Shown here: positions 30-32,148 of the stretch, in pieces
Layout of the letters: each line of letters opens with the position of its first letter
Position numbering within the stretch: position 1 is the first letter of the stretch
From: a virus
IMG/VR virus record: IMGVR_UViG_3300046683_000079
Coordinates: 1 to 32,440 of that record
Length of the DNA stretch: 32,440 nt
Direction: 5' to 3' (one strand)
Program-made: the position numbers and the translations under genes
The notes under the pieces: generated by a model
The model's database searches: none
What the model saw: only the letters and a program-made list of their open reading frames with translations
Told to the model about the DNA's origin: nothing

Positions 30-42
30 GCGTGACTCAGAT
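30..42. repeat. Dispersed motif, core only (#1)
   Basis: GCGTGACTCAGAT: core TGACTCA with degenerate arms; contains the GTG start of the holin candidate. Confidence 0.5.
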
Positions 43-229
43 GAATATCAATCAGGTTGCTAGCGATGTCGTAAAGGGTTTGCAGAGTGCACCGTTGCTG
101 CTAGGGGTGATAGTTCTCAATATCGTTATGGTGAGTGCCGCGACCTATTTCTTGATTAGGTTCGGCGAAGCTAATTCGGCACGCATTGAGCTTATTCTAA
201 AGAGTTGCTTGCCGTCGCCGCCGACATAG
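32..229 (+). CDS. Small single-membrane-segment protein, holin candidate
   Basis: The 65-residue product has one hydrophobic segment at about residues 22-43, a polar N-terminus and a short tail with a few charges. That size and layout suit a small phage holin, which would make the inner-membrane hole that releases the endolysin encoded at 1656. The GTG start lies inside a dispersed-motif copy and GGGG sits 7 bases upstream; ATG 42 is an alternative start. An in-frame stop at 14-16 shows the gene is not a fragment running in from the left. Holin function is inferred from topology and from the nearby endolysin, not from a recognised family. Confidence 0.5.
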   Translation: MTQMNINQVASDVVKGLQSAPLLLGVIVLNIVMVSAATYFLIRFGEANSARIELILKSCLPSPPT

Positions 230-274
230 CAGAGACAACAAGCAGGAATCGGCTCGTCAAAAATGGAGACAGTC

Positions 275-502
275 ATGTTGACGAATGATGAATACAACGA
301 GGCCATGAAGTTGCTTGCACGATTGGCCGAGCTACTGCGCAACGCCAATGGGGACAACAAGCAGGGTGTGAGTCAAACCGAAGCTGCGAGACAACAAGCA
401 GAAGCTGCGAGACAACAAGCTGAAAGCACAATTCCATCGCTTAGCAAAGCGCGACAGCATTGGCACGACACGTCTAGGCCACTCGACGAGATTGGCAAGT
501 AG
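275..502 (+). CDS. Small polar helical protein with EAARQQA repeats
   Basis: This 75-residue protein is of unknown function. It is predicted helical and carries a tandem heptad-like repeat (EAARQQA twice) in its middle, encoded by two 21-bp direct repeats. There is no membrane segment. ATG 275 is preferred over ATG 263 because GGAG lies 6 bases before 275 and nothing suitable precedes 263. A motif copy falls inside the gene and reads Val-Ser-Gln-Thr just before the repeat. It lies between the holin candidate and other small genes ahead of the endolysin. A spanin role was considered, but there is no membrane anchor or lipobox. Confidence 0.6.
   Translation: MLTNDEYNEAMKLLARLAELLRNANGDNKQGVSQTEAARQQAEAARQQAESTIPSLSKARQHWHDTSRPLDEIGK
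366..378. repeat. Dispersed motif (#2)
   Basis: GTGTGAGTCAAAC, the commonest form; inside the gene 275-502, reading Val-Ser-Gln-Thr. Confidence 0.9.
379..420 (+). repeat. 21-bp tandem repeat coding EAARQQA
   Basis: Two consecutive, almost identical 21-bp units starting GAAGCTGCGAGACAACAAGC. A shorter relative (GAGACAACAAGCAG) stands at about 231-244 before the gene, suggesting local slippage or duplication. Confidence 0.7.
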
Positions 503-551
503 CAAGCGAGTGTGCCATCACCAATCGACGGCAAACGATAAAGGATGCAAA

Positions 552-758
552 ATGACCAATTTCAAAAGCGATCTAATTGACGTGCTAGTTGAGAAGCACG
601 CAGAGACAGAAAAGGCAGTTCTTGTGTCCGAAACAGGAGACAAGGACGACGCTGAATGGCTCCCCAAAAGCCAGATTGAAATCGAGCCATCAACGAAAAA
701 AGGACAATTTACAGTCACAATGCCTGAGTGGCTAGCAAAAGAGAAAGGTTTCGTATGA
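552..758 (+). CDS. Small hypothetical phage protein
   Basis: The 68-residue acidic and lysine-rich protein matches no family I know. Its C-terminal half (residues about 35-68) alternates charged and hydrophobic residues in a way that suggests beta strands, and it ends MPEWLAKEKGFV. ATG 552 is chosen because AAGGA sits 6 bases before it; the frame is open upstream but without a better site. Its TGA stop overlaps the ATG of the next gene (ATGA), and both lie inside a dispersed-motif copy, so the two genes are probably translationally coupled. Confidence 0.6.
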   Translation: MTNFKSDLIDVLVEKHAETEKAVLVSETGDKDDAEWLPKSQIEIEPSTKKGQFTVTMPEWLAKEKGFV

Positions 759-765
759 CTCAAAC
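753..765. repeat. Dispersed motif over an ATGA stop-start overlap (#3)
   Basis: GTATGACTCAAAC; holds both the TGA of the gene ending 758 and the ATG of the gene at 755. Confidence 0.9.
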
Positions 766-1000: not shown

Positions 1001-1043
1001 CAAACAAGAGTGCGTCAAAATGTCGCATGGTGATATATTTCGC

Positions 1044-1072
1044 TTGACAAGTGATATATAATATGATATACT
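1044..1072 (+). promoter_or_regulatory. Sigma70-type promoter with extended -10
   Basis: TTGACA at 1044-1049 and TATACT at 1067-1072 are separated by 17 bases, and TG stands one base before the -10 hexamer (1064-1065), giving an extended -10. This is close to the bacterial housekeeping consensus. Transcription should begin near 1079 and read rightward into the gene at 1120 and the genes beyond it. A dispersed-motif copy lies about 40 bases downstream of the expected start, where a bound protein could block elongation or initiation. It is the only near-consensus promoter I found in the + arm. Confidence 0.75.
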
Positions 1073-1117
1073 ATCACGTTTGCTTCACCAGAGGAGGGCC
1101 AGCAAGGCTTCGGTTCG

Positions 1118-1130
1118 GTATGACTCAAAC
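1118..1130. repeat. Dispersed motif over a start codon (#4)
   Basis: GTATGACTCAAAC; ATG 1120 is inside it, about 40 bases past the expected transcript start of the 1044-1072 promoter. Confidence 0.9.
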
Positions 1131-1609: not shown

Positions 1610-1622
1610 CCTGTAAATTTGA

Positions 1623-1635
1623 GTTTGACTCAAAC
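1623..1635. repeat. Dispersed motif, intergenic (#5)
   Basis: GTTTGACTCAAAC, symmetric arms, extended to 15 bp by flanking A and T; upstream of the endolysin leader. Confidence 0.92.
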
Positions 1636-1639
1636 TGAA

Positions 1640-1658: not shown

Positions 1659-2651
1659 ACACAAAACCAAACTCAAACTAGCGAGCGTCCAGTAATCGGC
1701 CATGGCGATTTTGGCTACAACGTTAAGGAAGTTCAACACGCGCTCGACATAGAAGTCGATGGCGATTTCGGTCCTGATACCGACGACGCTGTTTCGCAAT
1801 ACCAACGCGAGAAAGACTTAGACGTTGATGGCGTCGTAGGTCCGCAGACGTGGAAAGAATTAACGAGGGAGTTTGACTTACCGCCGTACCCTCCAAAGCT
1901 GCCAACGGTATTCACGCCAGAAGTCAAGCGTATGATTACTGATACTGCAATCATTCATCCTATCGCCGATTATAATTGGGAGGATAGAGGTAAGGCGCCT
2001 GCCGGTTACATTAAAGGAATGGCGCTTGCCTACGCTCAGGCGTATGTACGTTTTGGTACAGATGATTTTCTAGCGATAGAGCTAAGTAAGGCAAACACAC
2101 ACGACAGTAGCGTTGACGCTTTGGCATGGCTTGCACAAGAGTTCGAAGACGCGAACATGAGCAATTCGCAGCGTGGTAAAAACACGTTAAGGCACTTATA
2201 CGTGCTTCTAATGGGACTAGGAATGCGTGAATCGTCTGGCGAGCATTGCTGTGGCAGGGATCAGTCGGCGAGCAATACAACGTCGGACACGTGCGAAGCT
2301 GGATTGTTTCAAACCAGTTGGAATGCCAGAAGTGCGTGCACCGATTTCATTAACTTGTTCGATCAGTATGAACTCAGTTCGCCACAGGGATACTTAAGCG
2401 CGTGGGAGGAAGACGTAAGCTGTTCTCAGAGCGATTGGGACAGCTATGGCAGTGGTGACGGTTTCATGTTTCAGGAACTGTGCAAGCGTGCTCCTACGTT
2501 CGCAGTTGAAACGTGTGCAGTAACATTGCGGAATTTAAGACAGCATTACGGACCGATCAATAGAAGGGAGGTTGAGTTACGACGAGAGGCCGACGATATG
2601 TTCAAGCGAATTGAACTGATCGTCGAAGGCGAAGTTTTTCTCGGAGTTTGA
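1656..2651 (+). CDS. Endolysin: peptidoglycan-binding domain plus lysozyme-like domain
   Basis: The 331-residue protein is the likely lysis enzyme. Residues about 12-70 form a peptidoglycan-binding domain of the PG_binding_1 type, with the repeated pattern VDGDFGPDTDDAV and VDGVVGPQTW. The C-terminal two thirds carry GMRESSGEHC (Glu192-Ser-Ser-Gly) followed by AGLFQTSWNA, which matches the catalytic Glu and following strand of lytic transglycosylase or goose-type lysozyme folds. It has several cysteines (including a CC pair) and no signal peptide, so it would need a holin to reach the wall; the protein at 32-229 is a candidate. GTG 1656 is preceded by AAGGAG. Its TGA stop is inside a motif copy. 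Confidence 0.82.
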   Translation: MTQNQTQTSERPVIGHGDFGYNVKEVQHALDIEVDGDFGPDTDDAVSQYQREKDLDVDGVVGPQTWKELTREFDLPPYPPKLPTVFTPEVKRMITDTAIIHPIADYNWEDRGKAPAGYIKGMALAYAQAYVRFGTDDFLAIELSKANTHDSSVDALAWLAQEFEDANMSNSQRGKNTLRHLYVLLMGLGMRESSGEHCCGRDQSASNTTSDTCEAGLFQTSWNARSACTDFINLFDQYELSSPQGYLSAWEEDVSCSQSDWDSYGSGDGFMFQELCKRAPTFAVETCAVTLRNLRQHYGPINRREVELRREADDMFKRIELIVEGEVFLGV

Positions 2652-2658
2652 GTCAAAC
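2646..2658. repeat. Dispersed motif over a stop codon (#6)
   Basis: GTTTGAGTCAAAC; contains the endolysin TGA stop and leads into the second leader cassette. Confidence 0.92.
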
Positions 2659-3952: not shown

Positions 3953-4217
3953 TCAGTTTCAGAAAGAGCTACGCGATCGTGGCATTGAGGGTCAGACAGC
4001 ATACATGATGACACTCATGTACGAAAGGATCATCGATTTGTCTCAGCAAGTCGTAATGGCTTCGAGGCTGATCGATGAATTAGCTACGTCATTAGGCAAC
4101 TTCGTAGAGTTGCATGAAAACACACAGCGACAGCTTAAGACGTTGATGCGTCACGGTCGCCCTGATGGCGTCGAAGTCCACAGCGTCGCGTACGACCCTG
4201 ACGAAAGTGAACACTAG
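3942..4217 (+). CDS. Helical hypothetical protein, 91 residues
   Basis: A mostly helical protein of unknown function with a methionine-rich stretch (AYMMTLMYER) and a polar, acidic C-terminal tail. ATG 3942 is chosen because AGGAG ends 6 bases before it; the frame is open upstream to 3891 but without a ribosome site. The bases between the Shine-Dalgarno and the start form GAGTCACAC, an imperfect half of the dispersed motif. Its TAG stop shares its G with a full motif copy. Confidence 0.6.
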   Translation: MEFNQFQKELRDRGIEGQTAYMMTLMYERIIDLSQQVVMASRLIDELATSLGNFVELHENTQRQLKTLMRHGRPDGVEVHSVAYDPDESEH

Positions 4218-4229
4218 TGTGAGTCAAAC
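4217..4229. repeat. Dispersed motif filling a gene junction (#8)
   Basis: GTGTGAGTCAAAC; its first G is the last base of a TAG stop and the next ATG begins 2 bases after it. Confidence 0.93.
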
Positions 4230-6524: not shown

Positions 6525-6771
6525 AGAAGGCTATGTGGCTGACAGAACCATGCCTTTTTGTCGCGAATGTATGCTTCCGGTAACGGTAAACCATCGCTAT
6601 CGGATAGTAAAGTACGACAGCAAAGGCGTCACCAAGTACGGTGTGAGTCATACCAACTGTGAGAATCCGACCGCAGGTACGCACAACGTGACAGGCACAC
6701 AGTTCGAGCGCAAGGATGGATTTAAGTACAAGTACATCATACCGCGAGTCGAAAAAGGTAAAGCAGAATAA
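6514..6771 (+). CDS. Zinc-ribbon-like small protein
   Basis: The 85-residue protein has FCREC (CxxC) near the N-terminus and SHTNC (HxxC) about 30 residues later, a spacing that could bind one zinc ion. The second half is basic and strand-rich (FKYKYIIPRVEKGKAE). Such proteins in replication blocks often bind nucleic acid, but no family is recognised. ATG 6514 has AAGGAG 7 bases upstream and overlaps the ATPase gene by 11 bases. The His and Cys region is encoded across motif copy GTGTGAGTCATAC. Confidence 0.6.
   Translation: MSNREGYVADRTMPFCRECMLPVTVNHRYRIVKYDSKGVTKYGVSHTNCENPTAGTHNVTGTQFERKDGFKYKYIIPRVEKGKAE
6641..6653. repeat. Dispersed motif (#11)
   Basis: GTGTGAGTCATAC across the HxxC part of the zinc-ribbon-like gene. 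Confidence 0.88.
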
Positions 6772-7397: not shown

Positions 7398-7424
7398 TGG
7401 CGTGTGGGTTTGACTCACACGCCA
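7398..7424 (+). terminator. Hairpin carrying a dispersed-motif copy
   Basis: TGGCGTGTG (7398-7406) is perfectly complementary to CACACGCCA (7416-7424), with a 9-base loop that contains most of motif copy GTTTGACTCACAC (7408-7420). In DNA the site can form the motif near-palindrome; in RNA it forms this 9-bp stem. No T run follows. It fills most of the 58-base gap between two genes and may be a terminator, a processing site or an operator with added structure. Confidence 0.55.
7408..7420. repeat. Dispersed motif, intergenic, within hairpin (#12)
   Basis: GTTTGACTCACAC (reverse complement of the commonest form) forming the loop and right arm of the 7398-7424 hairpin. Confidence 0.92.
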
Positions 7425-7681: not shown

Positions 7682-7882
7682 ATGGAAAGCGTACTAATCA
7701 GACTGGACGAGCACATCGTCAATGGATCGGATCAGCTATTAGTGCGCATCCGTCCACAAGACAAGCGGACAGTCAATCTAGCCGCAAGGGAACTAAACCT
7801 TACTGCGTCACAGTTCGTGCGGACCTTAGTGGTTCAAGCCGCACGAACTGTTGTTGCAGAGATAGCCTCGAAGAAGGGATAA
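7682..7882 (+). CDS. Ribbon-helix-helix-like DNA-binding protein
   Basis: Residues about 18-55 of this 66-residue protein follow the ribbon-helix-helix plan: strand QLLVRIRPQDKRTV, helix NLAARELNLT, then helix ASQFVRTLVVQAART. The pattern resembles DUF1778/CopG-type small DNA-binding proteins, which dimerise and insert a paired strand into the major groove of short palindromes. No toxin gene lies next to it, so an antitoxin role is unlikely. It is the best candidate in the window for a protein that reads the dispersed palindrome, but that link is inference. GAGG lies about 7 bases before the start. Confidence 0.65.
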   Translation: MESVLIRLDEHIVNGSDQLLVRIRPQDKRTVNLAARELNLTASQFVRTLVVQAARTVVAEIASKKG

Positions 7883-8236: not shown

Positions 8237-8249
8237 GTATGAGTCACAC
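8237..8249. repeat. Dispersed motif over the helicase start (#13)
   Basis: GTATGAGTCACAC; ATG 8239 is inside it, giving Met-Ser-His-Thr. Confidence 0.9.
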
Positions 8250-9552
8250 TGACGACGACCGTTTCGAAGGCAGCAACCATACCGAAGAAGAAAGCACGAT
8301 CATCCATCCGTCCAGCGAGCAAGAATATGCAGTGGACATGTGTACCGATCTAAAGCAACGCATCGTATCTGTCACAGGTGGAGCGGGTACAGGCAAGACG
8401 TTCGTTCTAGGTAAGGTTTATGTGGCGTTGCGAAACGAGAAAGTAGCCCTATGCGCCCCGACTGGACGAGCGGCTAAGCGCATCCAAGAACTAACAGGCA
8501 TCAAAGCGGTCACAGTCCACAAACTACTTGAGTTCCCAATGCCATCGGACGATCCGGTCATCATCGACACGGACCCCGATGATAGTGACATTATTCATTT
8601 TGAGGAACGCAAGCCTAACGAGCCTAGGCGAAACAAGTTCAACCCGTTCGAGGAAAACGTTATCATCGTAGACGAAGCATCGATGGTAGGACCGCAACTC
8701 TATCGTCACCTTATGGATGCATTACCTAAGAAAGGCGTGATCCGTTTCTTTGGTGACAACAATCAATTGCTACCTGTAGAAGATGGCGATCCTCCATTCA
8801 GAACGTTGCTGCATAGATTTCCGTCAATCGAGTTGACGTATAATTTCCGCAGCGGCGACGCTATTGTGTCGAACGCTTATCGTGTCTTGCGTGGTTTAGT
8901 GCCGCGTAACAATGATCATTTCCATGTTGTGTATACTGATCAGCCATTGCTTCAATTGTTTAAGTTAGTCTCAGCGCATCCAGAATTAGGTAGCGACAAC
9001 AATCAAATCATTATGCCTACACGTAAAGGAAGCGTCGGGACTGGTGTAGTCAACCCAACCATTCAGCTTAGGCTAAACCGACAGAAGGAACTCCTTCGCA
9101 TACCTCGGTTTGACTCACACGACAAGCCGTTGGTAGTGCGAGCGCATGACAAATTCCTGTGGATCAAGAATGACTACGAACTGCGATTATTCAACGGTGA
9201 GATCGGACGCATCACAGAGATCGATCCCGAAGAAGGCACATTATGGCTTAACACAAACGATAGGCAACACATTGAAATCCCTCCAAGAGTACGCACGTAT
9301 AACGCATACGCACAGGCGATGACGAACTACGATCCAAGGAAACAAATAGAACTTGGCTACGCCATCACAACACACAAAAGCCAGGGTTCAGAATTCGATA
9401 CGATAGTGTATTGCATCTCACGACGTGCTCCATTTCTGTTAAACAGGAACAACTTCTATACAGCCATCACTCGCGCCAGGAACCAAGTGATAGTTATCTG
9501 TGACAGACACGCTATGGGACAATCGTTAAGAAGAGAGAGAAGAGACAAGTGA
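8239..9552 (+). CDS. SF1B DNA helicase, RecD/Dda-like
   Basis: The 437-residue protein carries a full helicase set: Walker A GGAGTGKT (47-54), motif Ia CAPTGRAAKR, Walker B VDEAS (about 144-148), motif III GDNNQLLPV, motif V THKSQGSEFD and motif VI YTAITRAR. This is the superfamily 1B set of RecD2 and T4 Dda, which move 5' to 3' on ssDNA. It probably serves replication initiation or fork progress with the polymerase downstream. ATG 8239 lies inside motif copy GTATGAGTCACAC, with GAAGGGAG just upstream; an upstream in-frame start (8203) would overlap the preceding gene. A second motif copy is internal (Phe-Asp-Ser-His). Confidence 0.88.
   Translation: MSHTDDDRFEGSNHTEEESTIIHPSSEQEYAVDMCTDLKQRIVSVTGGAGTGKTFVLGKVYVALRNEKVALCAPTGRAAKRIQELTGIKAVTVHKLLEFPMPSDDPVIIDTDPDDSDIIHFEERKPNEPRRNKFNPFEENVIIVDEASMVGPQLYRHLMDALPKKGVIRFFGDNNQLLPVEDGDPPFRTLLHRFPSIELTYNFRSGDAIVSNAYRVLRGLVPRNNDHFHVVYTDQPLLQLFKLVSAHPELGSDNNQIIMPTRKGSVGTGVVNPTIQLRLNRQKELLRIPRFDSHDKPLVVRAHDKFLWIKNDYELRLFNGEIGRITEIDPEEGTLWLNTNDRQHIEIPPRVRTYNAYAQAMTNYDPRKQIELGYAITTHKSQGSEFDTIVYCISRRAPFLLNRNNFYTAITRARNQVIVICDRHAMGQSLRRERRDK
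9108..9120. repeat. Dispersed motif (#14)
   Basis: GTTTGACTCACAC inside the helicase gene, reading Phe-Asp-Ser-His. Confidence 0.9.
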
Positions 9553-9574: not shown

Positions 9575-10126
9575 ATGACCAAGTACATAGCGTTAACAGG
9601 ACCGCACAATAGTGGTAAGACAACAGCAGCAACAGCCCTGGGTAACGCATTGATGGCACTAGGTTACACAGTTAAGCATGACAGTTTCTCGTTTCCTGTT
9701 CTTGCGTATGCTGAAAACTTACTAGACTATCCTGCGCTCGATCTGGAAATGACCGATCCAATAGAAGCGTTAAGTAACAAATCGCTTCGTGAGTTTATTC
9801 AACGCGAACAGCAGCATATGCGTTTCAACTATGGGCCGCGCGTGCTCGGCGTACTATTAAGAGCGCGTATCGAGGGCCATAAACCGCCTATGTATTGTGT
9901 CGTTGACGATGGAGTTAATGCTAACGATGTCCTAGGACTAGGCCAATACGTATTAGTTGATGTAGCTAGGAAGAGTGTCGAAAGTGCGTACCCATTCACA
10001 ATCCCTGGGGCCGATTTCTATGTACGCAACGACGGTTCAGAAGATCGGCTTCGACTTAAAATGCAGCAACTCGCACCAAGGATCATAGAAAGGCTGTCAA
10101 ATGTTGAGCAGAAATCTAACCCGTGA
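9575..10126 (+). CDS. P-loop kinase, dNMP kinase-like
   Basis: The 183-residue protein starts with a P-loop GPHNSGKT (residues 9-16) and has the small-kinase layout: a following helix, an HDSFSFPVLAYAE substrate region, an Arg-rich lid-like segment (RVLGVLLRARIEG) and strand YCVVDDGVN. This fits the deoxynucleoside monophosphate kinase type in phages, which supplies dNTP precursors, though the substrate cannot be read from sequence. The 3' end overlaps the polymerase gene by 26 bases in another frame, placing it in the replication operon. Confidence 0.65.
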   Translation: MTKYIALTGPHNSGKTTAATALGNALMALGYTVKHDSFSFPVLAYAENLLDYPALDLEMTDPIEALSNKSLREFIQREQQHMRFNYGPRVLGVLLRARIEGHKPPMYCVVDDGVNANDVLGLGQYVLVDVARKSVESAYPFTIPGADFYVRNDGSEDRLRLKMQQLAPRIIERLSNVEQKSNP

Positions 10127-12605: not shown

Positions 12606-12857
12606 ATGGACTGGCAGGCAAAACTGACAGAATGGCTCATCAACGCAGGTACTGTAGGTAGACGGCAGAGCGAATTGATTTCACGAGTGAGCACTAAGGT
12701 CGATGACCGTGAAGTGCTATCGTTTCTCAATTCGCTACTGGCCGAGGGCAAGGTGCAAAAGTTCATCTTGCCGGGAGGCGTTATTCAGTGGCGAGCTACT
12801 ACAAAGATACTGCCACCGAAAGTAGAGAAGCCAAAGGTAGATAAGTCCCTCAACTAG
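12606..12857 (+). CDS. Small winged-helix-like protein
   Basis: Residues about 1-65 of 83 read as helix, helix, recognition-like helix (DDREVLSFLNSLLAEGKV) and a two-stranded wing (QKFILPGGVIQWRA), a pattern typical of small winged-helix DNA-binding domains. The tail is lysine/proline-rich. It is the last gene of the + arm, and its TAG stop shares its G with the motif copy that separates the two arms. It may be a regulator, or a replication accessory as it directly follows the polymerase. No family name is assigned. Confidence 0.55.
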   Translation: MDWQAKLTEWLINAGTVGRRQSELISRVSTKVDDREVLSFLNSLLAEGKVQKFILPGGVIQWRATTKILPPKVEKPKVDKSLN

Positions 12858-12869
12858 TTTGAGTCAAAC
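12857..12869. repeat. Dispersed motif separating the two transcription arms (#19)
   Basis: GTTTGAGTCAAAC; starts with the G of the + strand TAG and ends one base before the - strand TGA, so it is the whole space between the convergent genes. Confidence 0.95.
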
Positions 12870-18778: not shown

Positions 18779-18791
18779 GTTTGAGTCAAAC
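18779..18791. repeat. Dispersed motif, intergenic (#24)
   Basis: GTTTGAGTCAAAC; shares a G with the TAG of the gene 18791-19144 and precedes the Shine-Dalgarno of the giant gene. Confidence 0.93.
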
Positions 18792-19604: not shown

Positions 19605-19617
19605 GTTTGACTCAAAC
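19605..19617. repeat. Dispersed motif, intergenic (#25)
   Basis: GTTTGACTCAAAC, symmetric; upstream of the three coupled small genes that include the Acb2-like gene. Confidence 0.93.
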
Positions 19618-20676: not shown

Positions 20677-22185
20677 CTATTGTTCCTCTTCGTCTAACTT
20701 GTTATGTGTCTCTTCCGGTGTTTCCTGTGGAGTAGCAGGCAAATTACTTTCGATAAGCGGATCGTAACGCTGTTCGTTATACTTTGGATTGGACAGGTCG
20801 AATTTCGTAGGATCAGGTGGAGCATTCATCTTCTCGTACATGTCCTTTAATACTTGTGGCACAATCATTGATTTGCCGCTCTCCGGCGTAACGACTGGTG
20901 GAGTTTGACTCACACTTGGTGTTGGCACAGGTACTTGTGCTGCTCGAGGAATGATCCCGTATTCCGCCAAATTGTTGTTAATGGCTCGTGCAGAAGTCTC
21001 AGCCATGCTACTCGGGAGGGGTTCAGCTACACGATTGACTCGCGATAACAATTCAGTTAGCATTGCCTCCGACATTCCTGGAACCGCATGGGGCTGTTCG
21101 CTCATTCTATTTGACGGCGGAGGGGCCGGAGGCGATTCGTACATCCTTCGTATTATCTCCGGCACCCATGAAGACATACTTCGTGGAGGCGTGTCGGGGG
21201 GTGCGTATTCGCGTGGTATCGTCATACGTGAAGCGTTGTAACCGGCTAACACTTGCGGCAGCCATGTAGGGTTCTGGTTTCGCCCTACAGGCACCGTGTT
21301 CCCAGGCACTAATTTGTACTTCTCAGGACCGCTGATTGTAGGAGACGGCTGCTCGTAATCCGCAGTTGTGGCTACAGCGTGTGTTGGATTTCTTTCGCTA
21401 CCCATAGCTATGAAATCAGGATTTTCCGCCTTCCACTGTGACTCTAGAAATTTCTGTTCCCGTAATCCAGAAGCACGTCTTTCAGCATCCGTGAGATCGA
21501 TAGGCTCACCTTCGTACGACGGATAGCCATGCTTCGACTGGTACGCTATTCCTGCTTTAGTCTTCAAGAAGGGTTGATCCATGCCTACGGTTTCGGCTAG
21601 GTTATAGTCTCCCTTCATCATACGTTTGATCAGTGCATCCGAATACTGACCACTCGCAGGATTATTGCCAGCGTACATTGCCAATACTGCTGGTAGTTGA
21701 TAACTCAGCGGAACGTGTGGCTGTTCCCCGGGTTGTCCAGGTTGTCCTGTTGACGTTGTTGGTGGAGGCAATCCTGGAACGCCAGAAGTACCTCCGGCAC
21801 GAGTTGCGCGCTGACCACCTTCCTTAACGCCTAAGCCACGCAGTTCTTGTTGTTGTTGTAGCAGTCGGTCATGTTCCGCTGCGCGTTCTTTAATGCCTTC
21901 TGGTGTATGTGCAGGGAACTTGTACTGGTAACGTTGACTCCCACCCACAGTACCTGGGATGTTTATAGCGTCCTTTGGTACGGTCCCTGGAACCGTTCCG
22001 CGAGGCGTGACTGCATACGAATCCTGTGGAAGTAACAATTCAGGATGCGCGTTACGTGCCGCAGCATTGAGCGGCACGTATTTGTACCCTTTGGGTGGCG
22101 GCGGTAGTTCTTGAGGCTGCTGCTGTTGCTGCCCTCGACCTAATTCGAAGATACTCGGCAGCCCGAAACCGCTTTTCTTGGCCAT
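20677..22185 (-). CDS. Proline/glutamine-rich virion protein
   Basis: A 502-residue protein with a Gln-Pro run near the N-terminus (GRGQQQQQPQELPPPPKGYK), low-complexity Pro segments (residues about 340-365) and few predicted regular elements. A VSQTPP segment is encoded across a motif copy. It looks like a disordered internal virion protein. There is no clear Shine-Dalgarno: motif copy GTGTGAGTCAAAC, in the gene's direction, ends 2 bases before the ATG and directly follows the previous gene's TAA. This is the same arrangement as at 4232 and 28022. Confidence 0.55.
   Translation of the reverse strand: MAKKSGFGLPSIFELGRGQQQQQPQELPPPPKGYKYVPLNAAARNAHPELLLPQDSYAVTPRGTVPGTVPKDAINIPGTVGGSQRYQYKFPAHTPEGIKERAAEHDRLLQQQQELRGLGVKEGGQRATRAGGTSGVPGLPPPTTSTGQPGQPGEQPHVPLSYQLPAVLAMYAGNNPASGQYSDALIKRMMKGDYNLAETVGMDQPFLKTKAGIAYQSKHGYPSYEGEPIDLTDAERRASGLREQKFLESQWKAENPDFIAMGSERNPTHAVATTADYEQPSPTISGPEKYKLVPGNTVPVGRNQNPTWLPQVLAGYNASRMTIPREYAPPDTPPRSMSSWVPEIIRRMYESPPAPPPSNRMSEQPHAVPGMSEAMLTELLSRVNRVAEPLPSSMAETSARAINNNLAEYGIIPRAAQVPVPTPSVSQTPPVVTPESGKSMIVPQVLKDMYEKMNAPPDPTKFDLSNPKYNEQRYDPLIESNLPATPQETPEETHNKLDEEEQ
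20903..20915. repeat. Dispersed motif (#26)
   Basis: GTTTGACTCACAC in the proline-rich virion gene (Val-Ser-Gln-Thr). Confidence 0.9.
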
Positions 22186-22187
22186 GA

Positions 22188-22200
22188 GTTTGACTCACAC
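22188..22200. repeat. Dispersed motif filling a gene junction (#27)
   Basis: GTTTGACTCACAC; directly follows one gene's TAA and ends 2 bases before the next ATG on the - strand. Confidence 0.93.
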
Positions 22201-23116: not shown

Positions 23117-23638
23117 CTACTCCTGAGTTTGAGTCGTACTCGGCTTCATTTTGAGGCGGTTTAGATGATAAAGCTTACCGACAGGCTCAAAGCCTATGCT
23201 TTTGAGGTAACGTTCCATTCCTTCTTCATGCAATCCTCCCGTATGACTTGCCTGAATTAGCTTCGCCCTGCGTGCTATGGCCCAGTCGCGATAGGCCAAA
23301 GTGAGCTTCTGAAGGTTCAAAATCGACCGATATTCAGGCACAATATACAGAAAAACGTCGTTTGTGACCAGTTCCCATGAGAACAAAAGAGGAACACAGT
23401 ATGCCATAATGCCACCGACAAGCTCTTCTGCGTCGTTCAAAAGTATAAAAACTGTAATTGCGCCGTCGTTCGTGAGGTTGTTTCTAAGCAGAAATTCGAT
23501 ACGAGTCGGGTCTACAGATGCACCTTTATAGTTAGGCAACATTGGAACAAAGACACATGCTGCCTTCACGAGGTCAGGAATATCCGTCTCGGTGAATCGG
23601 CGTAAGTGCGTTTTGCGCGTTTCAGATTTGTCGGTCAT
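23117..23638 (-). CDS. GNAT-like acetyltransferase in the virion module
   Basis: The 173-residue protein has the GNAT order: helix ETDIPDLVKAACVF, strands ITVFILLNDAEELVGGIMAY, strand DVFLYIVPEYR, helix with LQKLTLAYRDWAIARRAK, then YLKSIGFEPVGKLYHL near the C-terminus. This resembles the N-acetyltransferase-like proteins often found beside podovirus internal virion genes. The acetyl-CoA loop (usually Arg/Gln-x-x-Gly-x-Gly/Ala) is not preserved: SILNLQ stands there, so enzymatic activity is doubtful. The last codons span a one-mismatch motif variant. Confidence 0.65.
   Translation of the reverse strand: MTDKSETRKTHLRRFTETDIPDLVKAACVFVPMLPNYKGASVDPTRIEFLLRNNLTNDGAITVFILLNDAEELVGGIMAYCVPLLFSWELVTNDVFLYIVPEYRSILNLQKLTLAYRDWAIARRAKLIQASHTGGLHEEGMERYLKSIGFEPVGKLYHLNRLKMKPSTTQTQE
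23127..23139. repeat. One-mismatch motif variant at a gene junction
   Basis: GTTTGAGTCGTAC, core changed to TGAGTCG, in the last codons of the GNAT-like gene. Not counted among the 35. Confidence 0.5.
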
Positions 23639-23652: not shown

Positions 23653-25620
23653 CTAGAGCCTTGCATTCGCCGATGCACGATAACCATTTACGTATGAATT
23701 TCCTATTATCGAAGAGGTCAAAACTTGTCTAACACCGTAAAGTGTTATACAGTCTATAGTCGTACCTCCTACATTGGCTGATCCACTACCCGATACGGTT
23801 GGATCAACGCCGATTGCACCAATTGTAGGTGCTCCACGCATTGTGACAGGAAGCGACATCCCAGCGATCGTGAAGGCACCTGCTACCTGCGCATAGAAAC
23901 CTAAGCTAAACGGTATCCATTGAAAGTAACGTTGGCACGCTGCAAGCTCTTGATCGTAAGTCGGCAACACTATCGCCTGTTGTCCACTTGCTGGTAAAAT
24001 CGTTCCCGGAACCACAATAATCCCAGTTATGCGAAACACATCCGACGTTGCAGCGACAGCGTTAACTTGCCCAGGCGCCGCAACGTAATTACCTGCCAAC
24101 CAATTATTAGCCGACGGTGCTGTATACGTGGTTCCGCAAGCCATTGCAAAATCAATTTCTATACCAAGGGTGTTATCTGTATTCCAAGTTCCTGTCGTAT
24201 CACCTGGAATAGTTATGGTATTATATTGATAGACATCTGAGACAGCCTGAGTATAGGTTGCAACATAAGAACGATTGCTGGCAAGGTTACGAACTGCTAC
24301 ACTGTAAATGCCAGTTCGATGATGTGCCGTCCAGAAACCTATCGATATAGGCTGAGGATTCGCAATGCCCCACGCCAATCGCCGCGTCCGCAATCCTTCC
24401 ATTCTTTGAACTGCACCTAACGCAAAATCACCGGCTCCCATAACTGTCTGTGCCGTAGTAACAGCAATACCTATAGAGCAAGGCATACCATTTATAGCAC
24501 CACTCGTATATTGCGCCGCGCTTAACGTCATAGTACCAGTAAAATTTATTAGCCATCCATCACAAGTATATTTACCTGTTGTAGTTACCGGAGTCGTACC
24601 ATTTTCTTGACTTATGTCCATTCCACCATTGATCGAAAGAATCTCAGGTCGCCCTACAACTGTTGTCCCTACGAACGCCGTCGTAGCAACTTTTGTTGAA
24701 CTGTCACCAGCCGTAGGTGTTGGAGCGGCTGGCGTACCTGTAAACGTCGGGCTGGCTATCGGAGCCTTCAACGCATCTTGCGAATCGACATAAGTGATAC
24801 TAGCTTTCAGCGCATCCTGTGAATCAACGTAGGTGACCGCCGCCTTAGATGTGTCGCTCGGATGAATGTGATCTTGTCTAGAATATAAATTCGAAATACC
24901 GGGAGCAGCAGGACCGTCCATTATAGGATTAGCGTTACCTGGTGCAGGCATTCCACTTCCACCAATCGAACCTGCAACGAACGCAGTAGTAGCGATAGTA
25001 GTATCATTGGTTGCCAAAGCTGGCGTTGGTGCTCTCGGAACACCTGTAAACGTAGGTGATGCTATTGGTGCTTTCGTCGCATCCTGTGCGTCAACATACG
25101 TTATCGAAGCACGAGACGTATCGGAAGGATGGCCGTGATCACCACGAGCATAAGTTTGACTCACACCAACTACTGCGGGACCGTTCATTAGTGGCGGAGT
25201 ATTACTCGGCACAACTGGATCAAGTCGAGCGTCCACTTCATCAATCGCAGCCTGAACGTTTGTAGCTGTCAATCCACTTGTGCCATTAGCGTACGAAATC
25301 GTCGCTGCGGTGCCTGTCGTGATGACTCCAAAGCCCCAATACGACGGATGCGCAGCTCGATCTTGTGCAAATGTCGTCGGTGCCGCGGCGCTGTTGTTAG
25401 CGACTAGACAAGACCAAACAGTGCCTAAATCCGAGTCAATCGCCACGTCGCCGACAGCATAACTTGTCGAATTTATCCAATTCATCATTCCGGCAACGGC
25501 CATAACGCCGTACATCTGCGCGTCGATTGAGTCGAACGTAGCAGATAATTGCGTAACCCATGGCTCCGACATGAAGTCAGGGACTGGAAATCGAAAGTAT
25601 TTTGTGTAGTGCGTGGTCAT
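23653..25620 (-). CDS. Tail fibre protein with duplicated repeat
   Basis: The N-terminal ~130 residues of 655 include DFMSEPWVTQLSATFDSID and SGLTATNVQAAIDEVDARL, typical of phage fibre shafts. Residues about 140-216 and 230-317 form a duplicated unit: a DHGHPSDTS or DHIHPSDTS turn, YVDAQDATK or YVDSQDALK, IASPTFTG, APTP and IATTAFV. The remaining ~335 residues look beta-rich and are probably the receptor-binding part (Trp/Tyr, ITGIIVVPGTILP). It overlaps the nozzle gene by 4 bases. A motif copy (VSQT) lies at the start of the first repeat. The receptor is unknown. Confidence 0.8.
   Translation of the reverse strand: MTTHYTKYFRFPVPDFMSEPWVTQLSATFDSIDAQMYGVMAVAGMMNWINSTSYAVGDVAIDSDLGTVWSCLVANNSAAAPTTFAQDRAAHPSYWGFGVITTGTAATISYANGTSGLTATNVQAAIDEVDARLDPVVPSNTPPLMNGPAVVGVSQTYARGDHGHPSDTSRASITYVDAQDATKAPIASPTFTGVPRAPTPALATNDTTIATTAFVAGSIGGSGMPAPGNANPIMDGPAAPGISNLYSRQDHIHPSDTSKAAVTYVDSQDALKASITYVDSQDALKAPIASPTFTGTPAAPTPTAGDSSTKVATTAFVGTTVVGRPEILSINGGMDISQENGTTPVTTTGKYTCDGWLINFTGTMTLSAAQYTSGAINGMPCSIGIAVTTAQTVMGAGDFALGAVQRMEGLRTRRLAWGIANPQPISIGFWTAHHRTGIYSVAVRNLASNRSYVATYTQAVSDVYQYNTITIPGDTTGTWNTDNTLGIEIDFAMACGTTYTAPSANNWLAGNYVAAPGQVNAVAATSDVFRITGIIVVPGTILPASGQQAIVLPTYDQELAACQRYFQWIPFSLGFYAQVAGAFTIAGMSLPVTMRGAPTIGAIGVDPTVSGSGSANVGGTTIDCITLYGVRQVLTSSIIGNSYVNGYRASANARL
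24670..25203 (-). repeat. Tail-fibre protein-level duplication
   Basis: Two similar units encode residues about 140-216 and 230-317 of the fibre, each with an HxHPSDTS turn, a YVD(A/S)QDA(T/L)K helix and a SPTFTG strand. The second unit contains an extra YVDSQDALK. Only the first unit keeps a dispersed-motif copy. Confidence 0.75.
25154..25166. repeat. Dispersed motif (#28)
   Basis: GTTTGACTCACAC in the first tail-fibre repeat (Val-Ser-Gln-Thr). Confidence 0.9.
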
Positions 25621-28022
25621 CGTTTGTACTGCCCCTCTGAATACAGGAAGGAGAAGTCGTTAACCTGTAAGGTTTTCGTAGATGTTCCGAACACCTTAAC
25701 CTTTAGGATTTTGAACTTGACAGGGAATCCCCATAGCCTGGGATCGTCTGCCACACGTCCGCCGCCGTAAGGACCGTCGTCATAGCCAAATCCTCGCATG
25801 GAGTTACCAACGAACTCAACCATCAATGCAGGATTATACATTATGTTGCCATTGTCGTCTTTGTAGAGTCCATCCACATAGACTTCGACAGTGAATCTAG
25901 CTACTCCAATTGCAGTTGCTGCAACGAAACGTAACTGCTTAATTTTCATCGGCTCACGGCCGGACATCCAAGGCAATTCCATCTCGAACGGAATTGAAAT
26001 ACCATTGTATATCGCCCACCACGAAGGATTGGCTGCTATGTCGTCAGCCATCGAAGTTGTTCCGCTGGTATGACTCACACTGCAAGTATAGCTCTTGGCT
26101 CCGTCGCCTGTAACTGCTGCCGTAGTAGTTGGAACGTACGCCCCCATGCTCTGGCTGGCTTCCAACTGATTGCCGAATATGACTACGCCAGTCGTTCCGT
26201 CGCCGTCATATATACTTGCGTCTGACGACCCATCGCCTTGCAACAAGGACAGACGCAAATACACTCCCGTTTCGGCGTTGTTCATATTTATGGTGTGACT
26301 CACACGCCACCAACCGTTCAACATCTGAATGGCGTTATAGCTTTGTGTAGCTGTTCCAGCAACCGTAGGTAAATCGAACTCGCCCGTGACTAAATTAAAT
26401 CTAACAGTGACACCAGTCGCCGTCGTCGGATTGGAATAAGCTCGAAGCGAGACATAAGTCTTGCCAGCGTTGTTCTTCAAATAAATAGATCGCGTATACG
26501 TTACACCGGCGACGACTGTTACAAGTTGGTCCAGTTTATGCTGCGAGCCAATCGTAGTATCTTCCTTAAGCAGCCATGCATTATTGCTATTTAGCGGATC
26601 AATCGTGTTGGGCGCCCATAGAACTGTCGCGGCGGTAATAGTCCAAGGCGCTACGTTGAATGTATCAGACTGCAACGCGACGTTCGTCACCATACTACGC
26701 ACAAGTTGACCAGCCGTAAATACTGTACTTCTCGCCCAATTCTTATCACGGTCATTCATCCGATCAGCGTGATAATTCTCATTTGCAAAGACAGCATTTC
26801 CGTGCTGGAATATCTTTGTGCCCGTCGAGTAGAACACACGTCCTAAGAACGATTGACACGCGCATGACCAATTTGTGGGGAAATTAAATTCTGACCATGC
26901 ATCGTAATGCAATCCTGTACTGCCAGTATGGACTAGGCAACGCCCATTCGGATTGAACAAAATCGTGTCATGCCATAGCGAATCGTAAACCATAAAGCAT
27001 TGTTCAAGCTGTTGCAAGTCGGTCAAGTTACCGATAATTGATCGGTACAACGGCTCGATACGATCACTGACATGCTGTGAATTAATCAAGCCACTGAACA
27101 GATTTCGCTTGGCGTCGCTGAAACCATCAAGTCCGGCGAAGATCAATTCTTGTTCGATAAATGTCATACACCGATGCCCGAGAAGACCGAACTTGGGCAG
27201 CGTATCAGGAAACGTAGGTGAATGTATACCTGACGCATTGTATACGCCAAGCGTCACAAGAATAGTCTGACCCTGAAAGAATATAATCAGATACGAGCGA
27301 AAACCGATCATTCCGCGAATTGACACGGCCCCTTGAGGCGCGTACGCACCCACGTCAATGCTGATTGCATCGTTCGGGACAGGATCACCAGGGAATGTAC
27401 CACTTGTACCAACTGCAGTAATGTAGATAGTAGTAGGACTGCCAGGAATACCACCGACGCAGTGGTAATTGCTGGCGACGCATCCATACTTACCGATTGG
27501 TACATTGACGTTGCTCCCTGTCGCAAGGTCTTGCAAATAAGTAACCTTAAACACGCTAGATATCGATAGCGGCTTATCCTTACCGTTATGGATTATCAGT
27601 GTATCCTTAAACGGCACGAAGTTGACGGTCGTGAATGCTGAGCCCCATGCCGACGGAGCACCAGGCAACAACGCAGCAATCGCAGTGCTCCAAATAGTCG
27701 TTACAACACCTGAATCGGAAACGGTTACGATGTTCCCTGATGTGGCGACAACAATCAAACGGCCATTGAAGTATATCTTGTCTAGAATTGTTCCACCTGC
27801 AGGTAATGAAGCTGCTACATCGGCAAACCAACTACTACCATATCGTAGTTGTTGGCCACCAGATGGAGCGCGTCTGAAATTCTTCAGAGTGACAGCAAAC
27901 CGCGGAGCCATACTATATTCGTCGTCAACGGCGTTCAAGCCTCCGCCAAAACCTTTCAGCGTGAGGCTCTTGAGACGAGACTTAGCCGTTCGCTGCTTTA
28001 GAATTTGGTTCGGAAATAGCAT
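25617..28022 (-). CDS. Tail nozzle protein with inserted carbohydrate-binding-like domain
   Basis: The N-terminal ~430 residues of 801 (SLTLKGFGGGLNAVDDEY, LKNFRRAPSGGQQLRYGSSW, FAGLDGFSDAKRNLF) match the beta-propeller nozzle type of podovirus tails (P22 gp10-like, SU10-type). Residues about 435-640 look inserted: SDTFNVAPWTITAATV, VVAGVTYTRSIYLKNNAG and LNGWWRVSHTINM form a jelly-roll pattern of carbohydrate-binding modules seen in phage tail proteins. The C-terminal ~160 residues return to nozzle-like sequence. It would close the tail and may touch surface glycans. There is no clear Shine-Dalgarno; a motif copy ends 2 bases before the ATG. Confidence 0.72.
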   Translation of the reverse strand: MLFPNQILKQRTAKSRLKSLTLKGFGGGLNAVDDEYSMAPRFAVTLKNFRRAPSGGQQLRYGSSWFADVAASLPAGGTILDKIYFNGRLIVVATSGNIVTVSDSGVVTTIWSTAIAALLPGAPSAWGSAFTTVNFVPFKDTLIIHNGKDKPLSISSVFKVTYLQDLATGSNVNVPIGKYGCVASNYHCVGGIPGSPTTIYITAVGTSGTFPGDPVPNDAISIDVGAYAPQGAVSIRGMIGFRSYLIIFFQGQTILVTLGVYNASGIHSPTFPDTLPKFGLLGHRCMTFIEQELIFAGLDGFSDAKRNLFSGLINSQHVSDRIEPLYRSIIGNLTDLQQLEQCFMVYDSLWHDTILFNPNGRCLVHTGSTGLHYDAWSEFNFPTNWSCACQSFLGRVFYSTGTKIFQHGNAVFANENYHADRMNDRDKNWARSTVFTAGQLVRSMVTNVALQSDTFNVAPWTITAATVLWAPNTIDPLNSNNAWLLKEDTTIGSQHKLDQLVTVVAGVTYTRSIYLKNNAGKTYVSLRAYSNPTTATGVTVRFNLVTGEFDLPTVAGTATQSYNAIQMLNGWWRVSHTINMNNAETGVYLRLSLLQGDGSSDASIYDGDGTTGVVIFGNQLEASQSMGAYVPTTTAAVTGDGAKSYTCSVSHTSGTTSMADDIAANPSWWAIYNGISIPFEMELPWMSGREPMKIKQLRFVAATAIGVARFTVEVYVDGLYKDDNGNIMYNPALMVEFVGNSMRGFGYDDGPYGGGRVADDPRLWGFPVKFKILKVKVFGTSTKTLQVNDFSFLYSEGQYKR
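26068..26080. repeat. Dispersed motif (#29)
   Basis: GTATGACTCACAC at the downstream edge of the inserted domain of the nozzle gene (Val-Ser-His-Thr). Confidence 0.88.
26293..26305. repeat. Dispersed motif, symmetric (#30)
   Basis: GTGTGACTCACAC within the inserted domain of the nozzle gene (Val-Ser-His-Thr). Confidence 0.9.
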
Positions 28023-28024
28023 AG

Positions 28025-28037
28025 GTTTGACTCACAC
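28025..28037. repeat. Dispersed motif, intergenic (#31)
   Basis: GTTTGACTCACAC; ends 2 bases before the nozzle ATG in place of a Shine-Dalgarno. Confidence 0.93.
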
Positions 28038-29970: not shown

Positions 29971-29983
29971 GTGTGAGTCAAAC
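29971..29983. repeat. Dispersed motif, intergenic (#33)
   Basis: GTGTGAGTCAAAC between the capsid gene and the next virion gene. Confidence 0.93.
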
Positions 29984-29993
29984 CCAATGTGGG

Positions 29994-30962
29994 TTAGTTG
30001 GTCAAGTACGCGTGGGTTCGGTAGTTCCTCCACGTGCAAAGCTGACCTTCCCACACTACGCGGCGGCCGGTCGCATCCATCGACCACGGAGCGACAAGCT
30101 TCTTAATCTTCATATTGACGCCGCGAAGCACATGCAACGTCATGTATCCGTCGTTGACGAAGTACGCGACGTTGGGAGAGAGTTTTTCATCGAACAGGAG
30201 AGGGATTCCGTTATGCGTCGTGCCAACGATCCCAAGATTAACCAATTTTTTGCCAGTTCCGGTTGCCTGTAGATCGATGTGCTGCTTGTCTCTGGCAGCG
30301 GCCTTGTGCATTCGGTAGATATTTCTACCGGCGAAGATGACAGACGGTTGCGGTGAGCTTTGACCGTCTGTAGATCGATTAAGGTCGAGTTCCGTGATGT
30401 CATCGAAGGCTTCCTCGATGTTTTCTGGCGTCAGTGTTCCTTGGAAGTCGTATGCGGATGTCCGCCATTGGGACTCCGCGGCCATGCTAATACCCCCAAC
30501 AGAACCACTGGTAGGATCGACAGGAATAAGATTTCCCAGTCCGTTAGGATCGGTGCCAGCACCCACAGAAGTATGATAAGCAGCAAATTGGCGACTAATA
30601 GATTCGTCGAGAGCCATAATCTTGCCCTTGATGATCTTGAATATCGCCGCACGTCCTTGGTTCTCATCTTCTTCCTGATCCGAAATGATCAGCGATCCAA
30701 CCACGCGTGACATGAAGTGGTTCACGGTGATGAATTCGTTGGTCTGGTTGACCGGCACAGTATCGTAATACTGCATCGATGTAACGTTCGGGTTGAGGCC
30801 CGTGATTAACGGGTTGCTGATCTGAGGCCCGCCGTCCTCAACGACCACACGCTTTTTTGCGTGCAAATACGCCGAGACGGTGCCGCTGATGGCCGAGGCC
30901 ATGATCAATTTCGCACGACTACGCGTGAGCATTGCATTCACAACCGTGTCGAGAGTAGCCAT
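29994..30962 (-). CDS. Major capsid protein (probable HK97 fold)
   Basis: The 322-residue protein follows the scaffold-like gene, the usual place of the capsid gene. It has an N-terminal helical arm (ATLDTVVNAMLTRSRAKL), LIISDQEEDENQG and KIIKGKIMALDESISRQFA as a spine-helix-like region, VIFAGRNIYRMHKAA, and a C-terminal beta region (NVAYFVNDGYMTLHVLRG, WEGQLCTWRNYRTHAYLTN). This suits an HK97-fold capsid subunit of a podovirus-type phage. The fold is inferred from pattern and position. AGGAGA precedes ATG 30962, with a fully palindromic motif copy just before it. Confidence 0.7.
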   Translation of the reverse strand: MATLDTVVNAMLTRSRAKLIMASAISGTVSAYLHAKKRVVVEDGGPQISNPLITGLNPNVTSMQYYDTVPVNQTNEFITVNHFMSRVVGSLIISDQEEDENQGRAAIFKIIKGKIMALDESISRQFAAYHTSVGAGTDPNGLGNLIPVDPTSGSVGGISMAAESQWRTSAYDFQGTLTPENIEEAFDDITELDLNRSTDGQSSPQPSVIFAGRNIYRMHKAAARDKQHIDLQATGTGKKLVNLGIVGTTHNGIPLLFDEKLSPNVAYFVNDGYMTLHVLRGVNMKIKKLVAPWSMDATGRRVVWEGQLCTWRNYRTHAYLTN

Positions 30963-30982
30963 TTTGAAACTTTCTCCTGTTC

Positions 30983-30995
30983 GTGTGAGTCACAC
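30983..30995. repeat. Dispersed motif over a stop codon (#34)
   Basis: GTGTGAGTCACAC, fully symmetric; holds the scaffold gene TGA and precedes the capsid gene Shine-Dalgarno. Confidence 0.93.
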
Positions 30996-32123
30996 CACGC
31001 CGAGTTGGTCGAGTGTGTCACGTAAGATTTGGTCGTAGGAGGCATTCACCGGAGCGACGTTGTTTGTACCATAGTTCAACGGCGCTCCGCGTCCTGCCGG
31101 GAGATTACGACGCATGGAATTACCATTTGGGCGTTGCTGTCCCTTGTTTTGGTTCATGCGCATCATGTTAAGTTGAATTTTCGCCCATACCTCCCCCAAA
31201 GACATATTCTGAAACTGAGGTTCGCTCAGTACAGCATGAAATATGGGAATGTATTGACGAGCACCAGGGTTCTCGTTGAAGAATCCATGTACCTCACTTT
31301 CTGTTTGACGAAGCTGAGCCTGTGCAGCTTGCGTACGTTGCTGTTGGATTTGTTCTTGTTCGGTTCTCTGCCGAATTGGTGCAGTTACCTGCGAGATTTC
31401 CTGTCGAACGATATCGACGAGCGACTTTGCGTCAACGCCACCTGGCGCTATACCAATCTTTGATACATCCACACCGGCCGTTGCAGCCATAGTAAGAAGT
31501 TTTCGAATTGTAGCAACGGGATCGCGCTTTGCCTCAGCCGCGAGTTGCAACGCTTGAATTTGCTCTCCGTCATTAAGACCGAGACGCGCACCTGTACCGT
31601 TTCTGTCGCGTAACTGTTCTTGTAGTTGTGTGACACGTCCGTGAAGCTCTTGGCCGATCTCAACTGCACGATTAAGTCTATTGGTTACGTCCTGCGCTCT
31701 GTGAGTTTCCTGAGCAAGCTGAGCACGTGCTCGAACGTTGTCGGTATAGAGCCGTGCTTCCATACCTGCACGGGCAACAACCTGACCGTTCGGACCGACG
31801 AAATTTCCGCGAGCATCCTGGGTAATTTGTCCAGGTTGGAATTGAGGCTGCTGGCGCTGCGGTTGTTGTCCTGGCTGCTGACGCTGGACTTCTGGCTGGT
31901 ACGCGGGCTGTCGCTGTTCGACCCGCTGGTCGATGTCTTGACTTTCGCTTTCAAAGCTTTCGTTTCCCTGTTCAAATGCGGATTCGTCCATGCCGAGATT
32001 GTCGAGAACCATATCCATGGCTTCGGAGCCAGGACCATTGTCGCCGCCAGTGTGATCCATACCACCCTGACCACCCATACCGCCATTTGATTGCGAAAAG
32101 CCTTCGCCTGATGTCATCGACAT
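30990..32123 (-). CDS. Capsid scaffolding protein, Gln-rich
   Basis: The 377-residue protein has an acidic, Gly/Met-rich start (GGMGGQGGMDHTGGDNG), a Gln/Pro-rich segment (residues about 72-100), then long helices with heptads (LAQETHRAQDVTNRLNRAVE, LHGRVTQLQEQLRDRN) and a polar C-terminus. Lying directly before the capsid gene, with this composition, it is the expected scaffold that shapes the procapsid and leaves on packaging. CGGAGA precedes ATG 32123. Its TGA stop (codons GTG TGA) lies inside motif copy GTGTGAGTCACAC. Confidence 0.7.
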   Translation of the reverse strand: MSMTSGEGFSQSNGGMGGQGGMDHTGGDNGPGSEAMDMVLDNLGMDESAFEQGNESFESESQDIDQRVEQRQPAYQPEVQRQQPGQQPQRQQPQFQPGQITQDARGNFVGPNGQVVARAGMEARLYTDNVRARAQLAQETHRAQDVTNRLNRAVEIGQELHGRVTQLQEQLRDRNGTGARLGLNDGEQIQALQLAAEAKRDPVATIRKLLTMAATAGVDVSKIGIAPGGVDAKSLVDIVRQEISQVTAPIRQRTEQEQIQQQRTQAAQAQLRQTESEVHGFFNENPGARQYIPIFHAVLSEPQFQNMSLGEVWAKIQLNMMRMNQNKGQQRPNGNSMRRNLPAGRGAPLNYGTNNVAPVNASYDQILRDTLDQLGVV

Positions 32124-32135
32124 GTGCTATCTCCG

Positions 32136-32148
32136 GTTTGAGTCAAAC
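32136..32148. repeat. Dispersed motif, intergenic (#35)
   Basis: GTTTGAGTCAAAC; shares a G with the TAG of the partial portal-like gene and precedes the scaffold gene. Confidence 0.93.

Follow-up and report, generated by a model that had tools for sequence, protein, structure and literature searches.

The stretch of DNA analysed here, called the window below, is the 32,440-base IMG/VR virus record IMGVR_UViG_3300046683_000079, a piece of the roughly 44-kb genome of an uncultured phage. It contains many copies of a 13-bp near-palindrome built from two GTNTGA half-sites, and the phage belongs to a group of uncultured soil phages that carry such a palindrome about once per kilobase. The sites lie mostly between genes, are evenly spaced within the window's group, are conserved at one position inside the DNA polymerase gene and drift in spelling from one relative to another, and these observations give good support to a protein-binding DNA system that spans the genome. 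From the same pattern we infer a protein that would read the sites, with transcription as its possible target.

The core TGASTCA occurs 35 times in the window, while dinucleotide shuffles gave a mean of 5.5 and a largest value of 11, and the stronger form GTDTGASTCAHAC occurs 26 times against a shuffle mean of 0.01. Both counts had been put forward in a sequence-only reading of the window and proved exact. In a stricter control, in which genes were shuffled with their codons preserved together with shuffled intergenic bases (300 trials), the core reached a mean of 5.6 and a maximum of 14, and GTDTGASTCAHAC a mean of 0.26 and a maximum of 3, leaving the 26 strong copies far outside that range as well. 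When GTNTGASTCANAC was searched with mismatches, the 26 exact copies were accompanied by 5 with one mismatch (0.6 expected) and 7 with two (5.0 expected). The site is sharp, nearly all-or-none, falling to background level beyond the one-mismatch copies. Ten copies of one asymmetric 13-mer or its complement and six of GTTTGASTCAAAC were likewise found as described. The spacing of about 0.94 kb given in that reading applies to all 35 cores, whereas the 26 strong sites average 1.27 kb, and the smallest distances go down to 36 bp. A hidden polarity, in which sites with one GTG and one AAC arm always have the same central base, holds in part only. In mixed GTT/GTG sites C stands beside the GTT half in 10 of 10 cases in the window, in 18 of 19 in related record G001 and in 6 of 6 in locus L167, but the tendency is weaker in L148 (6/10) and L115 (4/10), and polarity was rejected as a general rule. 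Orientation relative to transcription is mixed, as had been noted, being 7 to 3 in the window and mixed also over 16 relative loci.

Because the window is a fragment of a genome of about 44 kb, the claim that the sites are genome-wide could not be settled from it and needed relatives, in which the dispersal was indeed seen. Searching IMG/VR by capsid protein gave 207 relatives, of which 80 were kept. Record G001, with 44,355 bases and matching proteins 96-100% identical to those of the window, contains 40 sites. The pattern GTNTGASTCANAC was present in all 17 related records searched, in 1 to 40 copies, so the sites are not lost in relatives; the reversed pattern gave 0 copies. Ten of the 17 hold 25-40 copies and seven hold fewer exact copies. 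Several of the low counts are a change of spelling and not a loss, since G002 and G008 mainly use RTTTGASTCAAAY and G015 mainly uses GTGTGWNWCACAC. The site is lengthened to TTGTGTGASTCACACAA in G010, while G011 uses GTGTGANTCACAC and L120 GTATGASTCATAC. L142 and L145 have different spellings though five of their proteins are 75-91% identical. Among 75 helicase-linked loci, no site was found in L169 and L173 (5.1 and 4.0 kb). Remoter relatives, identified through DNA polymerases of 42-50% identity, have quite different palindromes: CTACANNNNNTGTAG (CTACAN5TGTAG) occurs 48, 41 and 41 times in G031, G032 and G033, and CTTTAASTTAAAG 28 times in G030, and all four have zero copies of the window's sites. 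Other remoter relatives contain moderate sets (CAACANNTGTTG, CAACGNNCGTTG, TTATACGTATAA) or none that was detected; as the detectors were exact 10-mer palindromes and 9-mers, degenerate sites could escape them. Methylation of the CcrM type, which has GANTC as its core, was considered as a cause and rejected, as GANTC is found in 1 of the 36 GTGTGNNNCACAC sites of G015.

Inside the DNA polymerase gene (10101..12596, + strand) the sites are selected as DNA. The copy GTGTGACTCACAC at 10925..10937 is kept at the same codons in relatives, with a site there in 31 of 35 distinct sequences against 1.9 expected under uniform synonymous choice, a value that real codon bias would shift somewhat. This comparison excludes identical sequences and any locus with a gap in the part concerned. 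Three of the four exceptions (L127, L120 and L163) differ from a site by a single base, and in L143 the site is absent. The encoded residue also varies with the spelling. In 13 loci T is the commonest third letter among the half-sites of the genome, and of these 8 have Phe as the polymerase residue and 5 have Cys, the Cys loci being the window's own lineage, L109 and L161; Phe is found in 0 of the 30 other loci. Loci L164 and L166 have GTGTGACACACAC in the polymerase gene and Thr in place of Ser. In such cases the protein follows the DNA site.

Placement was equally skewed. Intergenic sites number 14 of 26 in the window (1.8 expected), 28 of 40 in G001 (6.2), 23 of 31 in G002 (4.5), 27 of 39 in G008 (7.4), 32 of 38 in G010 (4.9), 32 of 36 in G011 (3.5) and 31 of 36 in G015 (6.3), all according to our own gene calls, which miss some small genes. 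Of 189 sites in five genomes, sites at record edges excluded, 119 lie between co-directional genes, 39 within genes, 26 in divergent gaps and 5 in convergent gaps. Often a site includes a stop codon or starts at its final base, with the ribosome-binding site that follows left uncovered. Spacing is more even than in controls with shuffled gene-junction contents in six of six genomes of the window's group, where the coefficient of variation (CV) is 0.54-0.78 against 1.06-1.17 (P 0.003 or less; G010, for instance, has 0.54 against 1.06). G043 is also more even than random (CV 0.65, P 0.014), while G032 (CV 0.89) and G030 (0.87), both with other palindromes, are not. Sites of G015 at L100:3281, L100:14862 and L101:124 are positioned inside longer GC-rich inverted repeats, some then followed by T runs, which by eye suggests a terminator that developed around the site.

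The 26 strong copies of the window are all given here on the + strand. GTGTGAGTCAAAC is found at 366..378, at 4217..4229, where its first base is the final base of the gene ending at 4217, and at 29971..29983. GTATGACTCAAAC stands at 753..765 and at 1118..1130, the latter 45 bp beyond a promoter-like element at 1044-1072, and GTTTGACTCAAAC at 1623..1635 and 19605..19617. Four copies are GTTTGAGTCAAAC, at 2646..2658, 18779..18791, 32136..32148 and 12857..12869, the last fitting exactly between the convergent gene ends 12857 and 12870. The most frequent spelling, GTTTGACTCACAC, is located at 7408..7420, 9108..9120 (within the helicase gene), 17890..17902, 20903..20915, 22188..22200 (occupying the gene junction from 22185 to 22201), 25154..25166 and 28025..28037. 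GTATGAGTCACAC at 8237..8249 overlaps the called helicase start at 8239. Besides its copy in the polymerase gene GTGTGACTCACAC occurs at 26293..26305, and a second site of the polymerase gene is GTTTGACTCATAC at 10961..10973. The remaining copies are GTGTGAGTCATAC at 6641..6653, GTTTGAGTCATAC at 16123..16135, GTATGACTCACAC at 26068..26080 and GTGTGAGTCACAC at 30983..30995, upstream of the capsid gene.

We analyzed whether the two halves of the site depend on each other. Selection for an RNA stem should enrich for equal half-sites; however, self-complementary half-site pairs make up 9 of 26 in the window (10.4 expected if the halves are free), 13 of 40 in G001 (17.1) and 77 against 88.6 expected in G001 and seven other sequences together. 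Half-site letters thus combine freely, which argues for a DNA site of a dimer and not for an RNA stem, each half being read separately as by a symmetric dimer. That the unit is an RNA hairpin, serving as a terminator or processing site, is very improbable on this basis, the stem being mispaired in 17 of the 26 window copies and copies being found also within genes and between convergent genes. By eye, some sites of G015 and G011 do stand within longer terminator-like stems, which is what that explanation would lead one to expect.

The protein most likely to read the sites would be a small winged-helix protein of 83 aa, encoded at 12606..12857 on the + strand, directly after the DNA polymerase gene. 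Its candidacy draws on a predicted structure, fold matches and co-occurrence. The model has a mean predicted local distance difference test (pLDDT) score of 85 and suggests a MarR-type winged-helix fold (best E 0.0095), with the centromere-binding protein AspA of pNOB8 among the fold matches. Co-occurrence was examined in those loci that span from SSB to 2.5 kb past the polymerase, 72 of which were kept. A standalone winged helix is present in 59 of the 72 (about 49 contigs), and all 59 have six or more site copies. In another 12 the winged helix is part of a frame of 410-501 residues, on the C-terminal side in 11, and DUF3987 was recognised in three of four such frames scanned. Moderate palindrome sets are found in four of these fused-form loci (L220, L226, L245, L249) and none was detected in eight. 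L233 has neither form. Every palindrome set in the 72 loci therefore comes with a winged helix in some form, which is not true of the second candidate discussed below, and L214, L232 and L244 combine a standalone winged helix and a site set with no match to that second candidate. The E-values of L206, L214, L232 and L237 for the winged helix, like those of the remote matches of the second candidate, come from profiles that included these sequences; independent values exist. The solo protein may be a domain left over from a replication ATPase. DUF3987 ATPases with a winged helix lie behind the DNA polymerase at L249:8346-9611, L245:10935-12191 and L218:11017-12288, and in the window's group the winged helix alone is found there.

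The second candidate is a ribbon-helix-helix (RHH) protein of 66 aa, TacA1/DUF1778-like, at 7682..7882 on the + strand. RHH proteins, NikR and MatP among them, bind short palindromes. The model (pLDDT 93) resembles TacA1, AtaR and Arc best, with weak E-values (best 0.36), one weak match to MatP is also present, and the RHH profile matches DUF1778 chains at E 0.0009-0.004. All 75 helicase-linked loci have this protein, whereas it was not found in any of four remote ones, and on 31 shared loci its distances track spelling slightly better than those of the winged helix (0.32 vs 0.28). It was put second because branches with palindrome sets had no RHH match: none was found in G030-G033 (43-48 kb), which have 28 to 48 dispersed palindromes each. 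The opposite is seen in L218, L234 and L238, where an RHH protein is matched but no palindrome set was detected. The RHH proteins of L142 and L145 are 91% identical with the same beta strand, yet the spellings of these loci differ, and over 36 loci the correlation with spelling is 0.25, turning to -0.12 when helicase distance is taken into account. We regard the RHH protein as an improbable reader. Slightly more doubtful still is a host protein, with spelling following the host. It would agree with the L142 and L145 comparison and with the small partial values, given helicase, of phage proteins present in at least 30 loci (largest 0.18, Sak4); a kinase present in 14 loci gives 0.46. However, three unrelated spellings in one genome plan would require three host factors for the same use. 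Covariation of spelling with proteins, by distance (36 of 75 loci kept, leaving out those with fewer than 5 sites or near-identical helicases) or by single residue (35 loci kept, leaving out those with fewer than 7 sites), gave no winner, relatedness explaining most of it, and the highest-ranking columns, in DNA polymerase, Sak4 and helicase, seem to mark clades. A CI-like repressor was also tried and rejected, HTH_3 being found in 6 of 25 records and no gene being common, by eye, to the control-region open reading frame lists of four genomes.

As to function, the sequence evidence makes us lean, tentatively, towards dispersed stoperator-like operators of a phage-encoded dimeric DNA-binding protein with a role in transcription. 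The 13-mer would be bound by a symmetric dimer, one subunit on each GTNTGA half-site, and this protein, bound all over the genome, would control transcription. Sites beside promoters could act as operators, and sites between genes could form obstacles to RNA polymerase, like stoperators, so that both arms of the genome would be held down or timed together. Among promoter-like elements with 11 or more of 12 matches (n = 34, window's group, near-identical contexts dropped), 17 have sites at 0 to +80, 8 have them at -110 to -38 and 0 have them in the core; for elements with 10 of 12 matches (n = 149) the numbers in the same three zones are 31, 14 and 3. G001 has a perfect consensus promoter at 6785-6757, and the -35 box of this promoter is preceded by a site 17 bp upstream. 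Such promoter-flanking sites fit a roadblock or a flanking operator. Several observations weigh against this interpretation. In five of six genomes sites are sparser in the main divergent region, taken as the control region, than in the rest of the noncoding DNA; as the extra density that was looked for there was not found, promoter flanking may only reflect free noncoding space. Site orientation is mixed, unlike that of stoperators, and even spacing together with sites inside long genes suits an architectural role at least as well. With regard to the winged helix, its link to the sites is a co-occurrence that follows phylogeny, among genes of the fetched loci; its distances agree with spelling (rho 0.28 over the 31 loci, partial 0.08) no better than relatedness does and slightly less well than those of the RHH protein; and because four of the 12 fused-form loci have moderate palindrome sets, standing alone is not required of it.

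An architectural function, in which the bound protein folds, condenses or segregates the genome or readies it for packaging in a MatP- or centromere-like manner, is possible although rather unlikely, and we rank it below the stoperator-like role. Intergenic placement would then mark where a fixed sequence is tolerated. The even spacing of the six window-group genomes and of G043, the internal sites of some long genes, including the conserved one of the polymerase gene, the lack of extra density at the control region and the AspA fold match are all consistent with it; against it, spacing in G032 and G030 is no more even than random, and sites can be as close as 36 bp. The other explanations partly overlap. 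A service in some replication step is suggested by the match of the winged helix to part of the DUF3987 ATPases behind the polymerase in remoter relatives, by the larger frames of the 12 fused-form loci and by the position of the gene after the DNA polymerase in the window. We consider it improbable, given that the sites are dispersed on both arms and at gene ends with no evident use in initiation, and that eight of the fused-form loci had no detected palindrome set. A broader picture, rather unlikely, is a so far undescribed genome-marking system of virulent soil phages. A solo winged helix derived from a replication ATPase would read a palindrome repeated about once per kilobase in lineage-specific spellings, three or more of these being unrelated. 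The spelling would serve as an identity code, either to sort out relatives that infect together or to organise the genome for expression and packaging, with an effect strong enough to reshape even the polymerase sequence. The interpretation in the sequence-only reading, which listed as possible roles repression or silencing, organising or packaging of the genome, replication or segregation, and marking for immunity, is partly supported. Immunity is weakened by the lack of a match to either integrase family searched in 25 records, some perhaps fragments, and of a confirmed capsid relative in the GTDB collection.

The nearest known kind of element is the stoperator of cluster A mycobacteriophages. 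Phages such as L5 and Bxb1 have 20-30 sites of 13 bp across the genome, whose spelling varies among relatives, as do the repressors, according to PMC6550527, and PMC9283540 describes the repressor as monomeric with two domains. Many short dispersed sites, 26 in the window and for the most part away from promoters, and drift of spelling between relatives are shared with that system. However, stoperators are asymmetric, whereas the half-sites here are palindromic, and they are oriented with transcription, whereas here orientation is mixed; having examined both features, we do not class the palindrome as a cluster A stoperator. A further difference is that up to 48 copies occur here, evenly spaced in the window's group, against 20-30. 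Life style may be another, as cluster A phages are temperate and no integrase match was found here in 25 records, some perhaps fragments. T1-like phages (Stevie, TLS), which are lytic, have dispersed 22-bp repeats, mainly intergenic, for which PMC4319613 and PMC11447400 give the role as unknown. Those repeats, as described there, are likewise dispersed and mostly intergenic, but they are asymmetric, oriented and of another sequence and phage group. Asymmetric motifs between genes of Nostoc phages are left unexplained in PMC4916379. The SPBRE of Bacillus phage SPbeta, as presented in PMC10516654, was a repeated intergenic element recognised by sequence reading and later shown to bind the master repressor MrpR. 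It resembles the present sites in being repeated and intergenic; it differs, on that account, in its roughly ten promoter sites, its temperate phage and a reader of the tyrosine-recombinase fold. In E. coli, matS is a 13-bp target present 23 times through which one protein, MatP, organises a domain (PMC3330122). This is an 800-kb chromosomal domain with tens of kb between sites, and both the target sequence and the protein differ from those here. MatP is an RHH protein, and a matS-like RHH reader would have to account for the RHH protein being present in the window's group and unmatched in the branches with other palindromes. A literature search, in which the motif letters themselves were not searched, found no description of this palindrome. 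Dispersed operator-like repeats have long been noted in phages, and their role in T1-like lytic phages is unknown. Dozens of relatives now provide several spellings within one genome plan, a conserved in-gene copy and two candidate proteins, and the role of such repeats in a phage without an evident prophage state is therefore testable.

By its genes this is a tailed phage. One strand encodes proteins of DNA metabolism (exonuclease, Sak4-like annealing protein, helicase, nucleotide kinase, DNA polymerase), and the virion genes (major head, tail and, in G001, terminase) lie on the opposite strand. Searches for the integrase families PF00589 (tyrosine) and PF00239 (serine) gave no match in 25 records, some of which are perhaps fragments, and parABS was not searched; a virulent life style is therefore likely. 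The GTDB collection yielded no confirmed capsid relative, and capsid identity to GenBank phages was at most 23.5% (5 records). In four GenBank records of 40-45 kb the best palindromes reached 3 to 6 copies against 2-4 in shuffles, the 6 belonging to OP947158. The major capsid protein (29994-30962) is 82-97% identical to its counterparts in G002, G008, G010, G011 and G015, while the DNA polymerases of these five are 55-72% and the scaffold-like proteins 34-54% identical to those of the window's phage, a contrast that may partly be search bias as the records were found by capsid. A protein of 253 aa encoded at L085:7238-7999 has a signal peptide-like start and a VPGP...RRK C-terminus that by eye resembles the PEP-CTERM sorting tails of Bradyrhizobium-like bacteria, a possible host hint; in the GTDB collection no relative of it could be confirmed. 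By eye, a GNAT acetyltransferase-like protein is encoded among the virion genes of the window at 23117-23638, and MW202489 and Bradyrhizobium phage OP596615 also have annotated acetyltransferases among their virion genes.

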